Below, piece by piece: positions 22,734 to 59,210 of a stretch of DNA of 64,000 bases. Source of the stretch: Nitrosarchaeum sp. (GTDB taxonomy: Archaea > Thermoproteota > Nitrososphaeria > Nitrososphaerales > Nitrosopumilaceae). The notes below the pieces were generated by a model, which worked only from the letters and a program-made list of their open reading frames with translations, was not told the DNA's origin and ran no database searches. The stretch covers positions 1-64,000 of the forward strand of contig NSIR01000002.1 of assembly GCA_002737445.1 (NCBI GenBank), written 5' to 3'. Position 1 is the first letter of the stretch. Every line of letters begins with the position of its first letter. Position numbers and translations under genes: made by a program.

Positions 22734-23018
22734 TGTGTGAGCTGGAGCACGAAACACTGCTACGGCAGAGGAAACTCCTCCCTCCATACAGGAAATGTGA
22801 TCCGGAGATGGATAACCAGAGATGGTTGGCAACGGAACAGAAAATAATCTGACCTGGCGCACTATGATGGCAAAACCTGAGATTTCCAGAGAAAGAATGA
22901 AAAAGACGCCCCACATGGAGCAAAGCCAAACAGAACTATAGGATCCTGTACCAAGTTCAGGTAGGCTGCAAAGCGTAATATCGTGAAAACAGAAGGAGGG
23001 TTACTCCCAGCACACACA
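22734..23018 (+). ncRNA. rnpB: RNase P RNA (archaeal type)
   Basis: Catalytic RNA that trims tRNA 5' leaders. The stretch is much richer in GC than its flanks and has no good reading frame. The universal 5' core GAGGAAACTCC is at 22768-22778 and the 3' core ACAGAA...GGGTTA at 22989-23003. The ends pair as helix P1: 22734-22739 with 23013-23018 and 22741-22745 with 23007-23011, with one A-A mismatch. A T-rich run (23021-23036) follows as a terminator. Boundaries come from P1 and could shift by a few bases. Confidence 0.9.
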
Positions 23019-23079: not shown

Positions 23080-24486
23080 TTAAAATCCTTTAGGCAATGT
23101 ACCTTTAGATTTTTTTGGTTGATCAGAGTTAGTTTTAGATTCAAATCCTTTTGGCAAACTACCTCTAGAGGTATTTGTTGCAGGTTTTACTTCTTCCTTG
23201 ACAGATTCTTGATATTTTTGTTCGGATTCAGTTTTTTGCTGTTCTGTTTGGTCTTCATAAACATTTCTTGTTTGATTGTACTCTGAATTATCAACAAGTT
23301 GAGCTTCACCTCTATTTGTTTGATAGCCACCAGAAGATGCACTTGTCTGGTAACTCACTAATTTACTAAGATCAATTCCTTGCTGACCTACTGGTTGATT
23401 TTTTAGTGTTCTACTACTAAAGATAAAAAATGCAATACCACCAATAGCCGCCATTCCTGCCATTCCATAAACAATGATAACAGGGAAACCACCCGTAGAA
23501 GTTGTTTGGTAACCTTGTGGCGGAGCTGCAGTTAATCCTACAATTTCTACGCCATCAAGCATGTCAAGTGCACCAAATCCAATTGCAGAAATATTTCCTT
23601 GATCAGATGATTGAACACTTCTAATTACATAATTTTTATCAGATGATATAGATGCCTCAAAAATTCTTTCTACTTGTCTACCCTCTCTAAGACTGCTTTC
23701 GCCCATTGTCCAATGAGACACAACAAATCCAGAAATAGAATCGCTCAATCCAAATGTAGCAGCATCTGAGGTAACACCTGTTGGATCAAATAAAAAATGC
23801 CAATTAGTCAGAGGCTGCGCTAAAATATAATTTGCGTTGATTAGAGATTTAGATAATACTGTATCAGCATCAGTTCCTGCAAGAATATTGTATACAATTG
23901 GTTCTTTATCTTTCAATATAGATATAGGTAAATTAATTTCCACACCGTCAAGTACAATGGAATCATCAGTACTCATCCCTCTCCAGCCCATGTCAACTAA
24001 ATAACGAACTTGATCATTTGTAATTAGATAATTGGATATAGTACCTTTCAAAATTACTTTATAATCAATAGCAGTATTAAGATCTCTTCCCTTAAGATGA
24101 AAAGTATAATCTACATTTAGATCAGAGATGGTCGCACTGCTTCCATCGGACCTAATTTTTTTATTAAGACTGGCAATTAAATTCTGAACACCTGGATTTG
24201 TAGCATCAGCAGTGCCGGTTACAGTCCATTCTTTTTCATGTAATTCATCAAAAATCTTTCCGCCATCAGGATATTCAATAAAGATGGTTTTTTGGAAATT
24301 ATAAGAGAATGGAGAGGTATCTGCAGAAGGAGTAATCCTAGCATCAATTTGTGCTGCCCAAACAGAAGGACTTGAACTGATTACAGTTATACCAACAATT
24401 AAAATTATCAAAAATAGTGTTTTAGACACGAATAAAATTGTTGAATAATTAGTAATAAACGTATGTTCAGAGATATGATCGTTCAT
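23080..24486 (-). CDS. Membrane-anchored surface protein with cytoplasmic LPKGF-repeat tail
   Basis: A 468-residue protein. An N-terminal hydrophobic segment (about 18-42) acts as signal or anchor, then a large beta-rich extracellular domain, a membrane helix near 345-370 (FPVIIVYGMAGMAAIGGIAFFIF), and a hydrophilic Gln/Glu-rich tail. The tail ends with RGSLPKGF (441-448) and KGTLPKGF (461-468), preceded by YQESVKEEVK. The same tail closes the unrelated protein at 57974. The tail lies on the side opposite the large domain, so probably in the cytoplasm. Family otherwise unrecognised; no function assigned. Confidence 0.8.
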   Translation of the reverse strand: MNDHISEHTFITNYSTILFVSKTLFLIILIVGITVISSSPSVWAAQIDARITPSADTSPFSYNFQKTIFIEYPDGGKIFDELHEKEWTVTGTADATNPGVQNLIASLNKKIRSDGSSATISDLNVDYTFHLKGRDLNTAIDYKVILKGTISNYLITNDQVRYLVDMGWRGMSTDDSIVLDGVEINLPISILKDKEPIVYNILAGTDADTVLSKSLINANYILAQPLTNWHFLFDPTGVTSDAATFGLSDSISGFVVSHWTMGESSLREGRQVERIFEASISSDKNYVIRSVQSSDQGNISAIGFGALDMLDGVEIVGLTAAPPQGYQTTSTGGFPVIIVYGMAGMAAIGGIAFFIFSSRTLKNQPVGQQGIDLSKLVSYQTSASSGGYQTNRGEAQLVDNSEYNQTRNVYEDQTEQQKTESEQKYQESVKEEVKPATNTSRGSLPKGFESKTNSDQPKKSKGTLPKGF

Positions 24487-57973: not shown

Positions 57974-58735
57974 TTAGAATCCTTTGGGTAAACTACCACG
58001 AGTTGTATTTGCTCTAGATTTTACTTCATCTTCAATAGACTCTTGATAGATTTTTTCTTGTTCAACTTTTTGTTGTTGTGCTCTTAGTAAATAATCTGCT
58101 TCATACTCAGCTAGCTGATCTTTTCTTGATTTTCCAGAATTGAGATCATTTGATGAAACTTGAGTTTGCTCAGTTCCTTTTGGCAATGTACCTTTATTTG
58201 ATTTTGGTGGAGGGGATTGATATGATTGAGCATGAGATGCTGAACCGTCAACAGTTAAAGACACACCACTAAAACTACCAAATCTTTTGTTTGCTGGATG
58301 ATATGCTAGTCTAGGTCTTGTTGCAAAGTATTGATTTGAAGGTTGTGTATATCCAGGAACTTTAGCTTTTTGATCATTCCAGTTTGTGGTTGATATTTTA
58401 CCTACAGGGGCAGTGTTTCTTACAAAATATCTATTTGGAGCTGGAGAATATCCTGTGACGTGTTCTCTATACCAATGAAAATCAGTCATTCGGGCATTTT
58501 GATAATTATTCTCTAATGCTTCTTGTAAAGTTAAGGGTGTTTGTGTTTTTACCTCTGCTGGTTTTACCTCTGCTGGTTTTACCTCTGCTGGTTTTACCTC
58601 TGCTGGTTTTACCTCTGCTGGTTTTTGTGCTGCTACTTTGGCTTCAAGCTGTGATGCCAAATTATTTAATTTAGATTCTAATTCTGCAATCTTGTTTTCA
58701 AGATCTTGTTTTGTTTGCTTTTTAGCAGCTACCAT
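57974..58735 (-). CDS. Coiled-coil, repeat-bearing protein with LPKGF tail
   Basis: A 253-residue soluble protein. Order: N-terminal coiled coil (about 8-35), five KPAEV repeats (about 38-62), a central region with paired YSPAPNRYFVR / TQPSNQYFATR motifs, KGTLPKGT at 181-188, a Gln/Glu-rich helix, and a final RGSLPKGF (246-253). The last 34 residues strongly match the tail of the membrane protein at 23080. No membrane helix or signal peptide, so it is probably cytoplasmic. Family unrecognised. Confidence 0.78.
   Translation of the reverse strand: MVAAKKQTKQDLENKIAELESKLNNLASQLEAKVAAQKPAEVKPAEVKPAEVKPAEVKPAEVKTQTPLTLQEALENNYQNARMTDFHWYREHVTGYSPAPNRYFVRNTAPVGKISTTNWNDQKAKVPGYTQPSNQYFATRPRLAYHPANKRFGSFSGVSLTVDGSASHAQSYQSPPPKSNKGTLPKGTEQTQVSSNDLNSGKSRKDQLAEYEADYLLRAQQQKVEQEKIYQESIEDEVKSRANTTRGSLPKGF
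58551..58625. repeat. Five tandem 15-bp units (KPAEV repeat)
   Basis: Five consecutive copies of acctctgctggtttt on the plus strand encode KPAEV on the minus strand. Perfect identity suggests recent slippage; units of 15 keep the frame, so length may vary among strains. Confidence 0.9.
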
Positions 58736-58832: not shown

Positions 58833-59210
58833 ATGGATGATTTTGAGAAAGAATACCCAGGATTTGATTGGAAAAATACACCTGCATACAAACATCCAGG
58901 TGGAAAAGATTGTCCATGTCCAAAGCATGAATACATTAGGGAACAGATCAACTTTACAAAACAAGTAAATCAAAAAGGAAAAGAAACATCAAAAATAACT
59001 TTAAAATTTTGTCCGGATCATTATAGAGTGTACACTCAAGAAGTAATTCCATCTATGCCATTAAAATATAGAATTTTGACAAAAATCGCATTAAAACTTG
59101 GCGCCATACAGATAGAGCAATTAAAGTACATGGAATCAGAATTATGTTTTTACTGCAAATTTGGTTCTGGAGGTCATGATAGAAAGAATGAACTTCCTCC
59201 AATGGGATAA
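58833..59210 (+). CDS. Cysteine-containing soluble protein, unknown function
   Basis: A 125-residue protein with several cysteine/histidine clusters: GGKDCPCPKHEY near 24-34, LKFCPDHYRVY, and LCFYCKFGSGGHDRK near the C-terminus. This layout suggests one or two metal sites. An alternative upstream frame at 58744 is not the coding frame. ATG start. Divergent from the LPKGF-tail gene across about 97 bases. Function unknown. Confidence 0.7.
   Translation: MDDFEKEYPGFDWKNTPAYKHPGGKDCPCPKHEYIREQINFTKQVNQKGKETSKITLKFCPDHYRVYTQEVIPSMPLKYRILTKIALKLGAIQIEQLKYMESELCFYCKFGSGGHDRKNELPPMG

Follow-up and report, generated by a model that had tools for sequence, protein, structure and literature searches.

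A short GTLPKGF peptide specific to the Nitrosopumilaceae is probably a docking tag shared by a soluble coiled-coil protein and a membrane protein

The C-terminal conserved peptide of FtsZ and the C-terminal tip of bacterial SSB are short rigid peptides that end a disordered linker and act as a common dock for several partners, the SSB tip ending in a phenylalanine with a free carboxylate. CsoS2 and EPYC1 are multivalent disordered scaffolds with repeated short motifs, and in the crenarchaeal MIM2 (CdvB-CdvC) the C-terminal end of an ESCRT-III subunit carries a repeated hydrophobic-proline pattern. We analyzed a window of 64,000 nucleotides from a Nitrosarchaeum genome (contig NSIR01000002.1, positions 1 to 64,000; genome of 1.19 Mb in 13 contigs), in which a soluble protein and a membrane protein end in an LPKGF motif. 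Like the FtsZ peptide and the SSB tip, this motif is a short, rigid, and conserved peptide, and as in SSB it ends in a phenylalanine with a free carboxylate; by analogy, its working principle could be that of other C-terminal docking peptides. However, it has no sequence relation to either, is found on at least four unrelated proteins, and is repeated internally. Membership in the FtsZ or SSB group was rejected, the window carriers having no homology to any family.

The soluble carrier resembles CsoS2 and EPYC1 in combining repeated short motifs with Pro/Lys/Ala-rich spacers and helices, but it has no link to a bacterial microcompartment or to Rubisco, and its motif also occurs on membrane and long coiled-coil proteins. 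Like the LPXTG sortase signal, the motif starts with LPx near the C terminus, although it lacks the Thr-Gly and the hydrophobic segment that would follow, lies on the predicted cytoplasmic side, and is borne by proteins that are mostly not exported. A sortase substrate was rejected, since LPKG(F/W/T) stands at the chain end or in linkers and the soluble carrier has no hydrophobic segment at all. With MIM2 the motif shares a proline-containing C-terminal peptide and its occurrence in archaea with Cdv proteins, but Gly-x-Leu-Pro-Lys-Gly-Phe lacks the repeated hydrophobic-proline pattern; MIM2 was discarded as well, given the single proline in the motif core and the lack of any Pfam match of the carriers to ESCRT-III. 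No Pfam or NCBIfam model exceeded its curated cut-off for either window protein, in agreement with the initial annotation, which knew of no named domain for the tail. We found no mention of GTLPKG in the literature searched and nothing on these proteins; for the string LPKGF, the matches listed all concerned unrelated subjects, mostly coronavirus nucleoprotein epitopes.

Both open reading frames were confirmed on the minus strand, that of the soluble protein (253 amino acids) at 57974..58735 and that of the membrane protein (468 amino acids) at 23080..24486, and their tails match as had been described. The soluble protein has the C-terminal sequence YQESIEDEVKSRANTTRGSLPKGF, with a terminal RGSLPKGF at 57977..58000 and an internal KGTLPKGT at 58172..58195 (both minus strand). 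The C-terminal sequence of the membrane protein is YQESVKEEVKPATNTSRGSLPKGFESKTNSDQPKKSKGTLPKGF, in which RGSLPKGF (23143..23166, minus strand) is followed by a terminal KGTLPKGF (23083..23106, minus strand). The membrane protein is composed of an N-terminal hydrophobic segment, an outer domain, one transmembrane segment (about residues 336 to 355; 23422..23481, minus strand), and a cytoplasmic tail, a topology predicted from hydropathy. The contrast originally drawn between a soluble and a membrane-anchored carrier is thus upheld, with the placement of the tail on the inner face following from the same hydropathy analysis.

A six-frame search of the window genome for G[ST]LPKG returned four matches, all four within the soluble and membrane genes, while the reversed pattern returned none and a relaxed pattern added just two unrelated sites that cannot be read as the motif. 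Among 150 genomes of the class, the motif, in the form [KR]G[TSA][LM]P[K/A]G[F/W], was present in 77 of 99 Nitrosopumilaceae genomes versus 1 of 51 outside this family, and the sole outside match, reading GRIPKGC, is spurious. A chance origin was rejected, since reversing the pattern yielded a single match across the 150 genomes. The motif is therefore specific to the Nitrosopumilaceae, and not the tag of thaumarchaea at large that had been suggested.

The conservation of the motif was then assessed on the tails of soluble proteins, 46 after dereplication. Positions -7 and -5 to -1 (G, L, P, K, G, and F) showed zero entropy, and their residues were encoded by 4, 6, 4, 2, 4, and 2 codons, that is, by every synonymous codon; because the tails had been selected as ending in LP[K/A]G[F/W/M], the invariance of L, P, and the second G is fixed by construction, while that of K, F, and the first G is not. 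Twenty to 40 residues upstream of the motif, the entropy was 2.7 to 3.6 bits. Invariant residues combined with full use of synonymous codons indicate strong selection on the peptide, as the first reading of the tails had supposed. Among closed soluble reading frames, 65 of 76 ended in G-x-[LM]-P-[KA]-G-[FWMY] at most 3 residues from the end, and the remaining 11 mostly had near forms (GTLPKGL/T/S or TTLPAGFKP) or were cut by masked bases. Phenylalanine was the last residue in 76 of 79 terminal copies; internal copies, ending in F (77), M (39), or T (30), were as common as terminal ones. These alignments point to a conserved unit of 7 to 8 residues that occurs internally too. The form seen in genera g25 and g6, [GT]TLPAG[FMW]KP, shows that lysine in position six is not an absolute requirement throughout the soluble family. 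In one genome (G049), the soluble and the membrane protein both have the LPAG variant, as would be expected under a shared receptor or copying between genes.

The soluble family was detected with an alignment profile in 31 of 37 genomes tested, including divergent forms in g25 and g6, and among the Nitrosopumilaceae genomes of this set it was missing from just a few. Its members begin with a coiled coil (in the window protein a predicted helix at residues 9 to 33; 58637..58711, minus strand), continue with KPAEVKPAEV-type linkers and a conserved body (..TGYTxPSNQYFATRxRLAYHP..), and end with a helix; most carry 1 to 7 motif copies. In the window protein, the body spans about residues 83 to 155 (58271..58489, minus strand), with GY(S/T)xxxNxYFxxR repeats leading to NQYFATRxRLAYHP, and a long helix is predicted at residues 204 to 243 (58007..58126, minus strand), ahead of the terminal motif. 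The YQES prefix, initially taken as part of the tag, is just this helix, carried along with the copied tail described below. AlphaFold2 modeling with 42 sequences gave a pLDDT of 57 and a pTM of 0.22, with better-supported helices just near residues 9 to 33 and 204 to 243, and did not yield a confident fold for the body; the model was too weak for a fold search. This low confidence is compatible with a largely disordered protein, although a shallow alignment could also explain it. In many genomes, the soluble gene forms a tandem pair in which the short paralogue stops at the internal copy of the long one, so that both are motif ended, the short paralogues of relatives mostly finishing in ..GTLPKGF. 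Draft contigs often break within these tandem genes, and motif copies and paralogues are therefore probably undercounted in public assemblies.

We next addressed the origin of the window's membrane tail. The final 61 codons of this gene (23083..23265, minus strand), whose place is taken in most sister species by a Cys-rich tail, can be aligned gap-free with the 3' end of the double-motif soluble genes of relatives, with a local score of 210 versus at most 93 for shuffled loci. Against the window's own soluble gene, which is of the single-motif form, the same 61 codons scored only 163. An ungapped alignment better than that to the soluble gene of the same genome indicates that the window tail was copied from a double-motif 3' end, the donor being, as far as these alignments tell, an ancestor of this lineage or a relative. 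Duplication of a full-length gene, which the initial annotation had named as a competing origin, was rejected: the 3' end alone is common to both genes, the bodies are unrelated, and most sister membrane tails differ. Over 24 aligned codons, the two window tails showed 8 synonymous differences at 15.8 sites and 9 nonsynonymous ones at 56.2 sites (pS 0.51, pN 0.16), and in the last eight codons (RGSLPKGF) four differ, all synonymously. The earlier statement that the DNA of the tails differs while the peptide is held is thus borne out, but the two DNA sequences are not independent, because the tail was copied in from a soluble 3' end, and this common ancestry weakens the argument for convergence there.

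Members of the membrane family share the architecture given above, and their inner segment (..GQQGIDPSxL..SGGYQTNRGEAQL..) is conserved. When the family was searched against Pfam and PDB profiles, all matches were sub-threshold (adhesin, E 0.03), and the outer domain had no database match. At least four kinds of tail follow the inner segment, namely, the PKG[F/W] motif, two Cys-rich modules, and an 83-residue module. The first Cys-rich module is EEAACGCAASAEIGSECDC.., and the second, M-x-DQACGCEADSGDPDYACDC.., resembles a complete stand-alone gene, start methionine included. The 83-residue module, TKMINVNIQVDNIDP.., was present at four loci and had no significant Pfam match. In most sister species, the membrane protein bears a Cys-rich tail, not LPKGF, that is related to a stand-alone small protein; in other genera the membrane tails run 1 to 4 residues past the aromatic residue. 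All 17 genomes searched had the stand-alone protein, apart from cases unresolved from the fused copy, and in the window genome its gene lies outside the window, at C6:142797-142931. The protein has 45 to 50 residues, CxC pairs, a metallothionein-like look, and no Pfam match. No silent tail cassettes were found adjoining the membrane gene, and a search of the window genome for Cys-rich matches returned the distant stand-alone gene alone.

On a tree of 57 bodies, from which the tails were left out, at least 11 changes are required among the four tail states; on this quick tree the PKG tail needs 5 changes, 3 of them forced by strong branches. Within Nitrosarchaeum, grouping the three PKG-tailed membrane proteins together was rejected (AU test, P = 0.0021), and with it a single origin of the LPKGF membrane tails of this genus. 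Bodies that are 95% identical can have different tail types (L342 versus L329 and L350), and some of the switches could stem from horizontal transfer, be it of entire genes or of bodies. The swapped stretch extends from the RGEAQL..VYE codons to the stop, and the sequence beyond it is again nearly identical between species. There lies the archaeal RNase P RNA gene (22737..23015, plus strand; Rfam RF00373, 187 bits), convergent with the membrane gene and with its 3' end 64 bp from the membrane stop codon, which, as judged from these comparisons, bounds the tail slot. Repeated tail replacement amounts to a natural domain-swap experiment, in which one membrane platform is connected with the tag, with a small Cys-rich protein, and with the 83-residue module.

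It had been asked whether the tail is limited to the two orthologue groups of the window, and this is not the case, as two more unrelated families carry the motif. The first comprises long coiled-coil proteins with N-terminal SGxGDxGRLxHI..LYxSDxxYLExKL repeats followed by an RG[TS]MPK[GD]W segment, which is their only, internal copy; they occur in many Nitrosopumilus and Nitrosarchaeum genomes and are absent from the window genome. In one genome (G009), the gene looks like a pseudogene with many stops, suggesting that this carrier can be lost. The second comprises repeat proteins with about 15 to 21 copies of RGTLPKGFEKP or HGTLPKGMSPP, the start of which is DUF3892-like in our reading, without a library match; a related protein combines few copies with a C-terminal DUF5679 domain. 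In one complete genome (G077), the soluble and long coiled-coil carriers are present, and a membrane orthologue was not detectable.

Taken together, the motif has the attributes of a short linear motif: it is a conserved peptide within the range of 3 to 10 residues, it lies in regions that AlphaFold confidence and composition suggest to be disordered, it recurs in proteins without other homology, and it has been gained repeatedly. The GTLPKGF peptide is thus probably a docking tag. More specifically, we lean, with modest confidence, toward a Nitrosopumilaceae docking motif through which a single cytoplasmic receptor would bind both a multivalent soluble scaffold and a membrane anchor. This receptor would grip the Leu-Pro turn and the aromatic residue, the latter at chain ends being almost always a phenylalanine with a free carboxylate. 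The soluble protein would be a mostly disordered scaffold, oligomerized by its N-terminal coiled coil and carrying the conserved body together with a single motif copy or several, of which the last is C terminal. The membrane protein, bearing the same motif on the inner face, would be drawn to the same receptor and would either tether the scaffold or compete with it; alternatively, the scaffold may be tethered to the membrane through the receptor, or may itself be the receptor. Since most membrane orthologues have no motif, tethering is not essential in the membrane family. In this Nitrosarchaeum lineage, the membrane protein gained the motif when a prior cytoplasmic tail gave way to the copied soluble 3' end.

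Among the other readings, the one that survives best does away with a separate receptor: the motif could be a homotypic sticker, or be bound by the soluble body, with motif tails recruiting their bearers to the resulting network. The soluble family is indeed the commonest carrier and the one with the most copies (up to 7 in the set of this family), it has a coiled coil, and it is as widespread as reported above, LPAG-form genera included. We nevertheless regard this reading as unlikely. No soluble homologue was found in one genome that is 90% complete (G052), yet its membrane tail is GGAMPKDWKPSS; in another (G045), the soluble homologue is weak and truncated, while other families keep motif-like copies. 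In addition, the single-chain AlphaFold model gave no confident structure for either body or motif, leaving the docking of one on the other unsupported.

A C-terminal stability or turnover tag, acting as a degron or a protease shield and not as a docking site, would fit the nearly constant location of the soluble-family motif at the very C terminus, nearly always ending in F. This is hard to reconcile with internal copies that equal terminal ones in frequency, with the long coiled-coil family keeping an internal copy alone, and with the membrane tails of other genera extending past the aromatic residue, and we consider it improbable. Finally, the motif could be without function, left behind as repeats expanded and gene conversion acted on low-complexity sequence rich in Pro, Lys, and Ala. 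The KPAEVKPAEV.. linkers do grow and shrink, there are tandem paralogues, and the window's membrane tail was copied. This reading is nevertheless scarcely credible and already disfavored: six residues are invariant while all their synonymous codons are used, right beside unconserved linkers, and the motif recurs in unrelated families and was fixed repeatedly on the membrane protein.

Returning to the docking motif with a common receptor, it may be extended to a tag-based organizing system in which one receptor would read GTLPKG[F/W] on the scaffold, the long coiled-coil proteins, and the membrane protein, whose cassette-like tail slot, adjoining the RNase P RNA gene, would take LPKGF, the two Cys-rich modules, or the fourth module. 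We see this extension as possible but doubtful; if true, repeated module splicing would rewire membrane attachments between close species. The Nitrosopumilaceae, among which named related loci also place the window, are ammonia-oxidizing archaea of marine and freshwater habitats. The internal organization of ammonia-oxidizing archaea, which are among the most abundant ocean microbes, is little known, and a motif common to soluble, coiled-coil, and membrane proteins across nearly the whole family offers a ready bait for the missing partner.

No receptor for the motif was identified in our searches. The sole genetic candidate, a weak one suggested through guilt by association, is a small conserved Cys/His-rich protein encoded at 58833..59210 on the plus strand and divergently paired with the soluble gene. 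Its AlphaFold model is poor (pLDDT 62), a PDB profile search and Foldseek on this poor model found nothing similar in the PDB, and it has no family name; together with its distribution, these analyses gave no positive evidence for a partner role beyond the conserved linkage. Sequence identity of the protein is 97 to 98% between members of the genus and at least 73% over most of the Nitrosopumilaceae, and the divergent linkage to the soluble gene is kept in most genera of the family. Two genomes from another family, which have no soluble gene, likewise possess this small gene.
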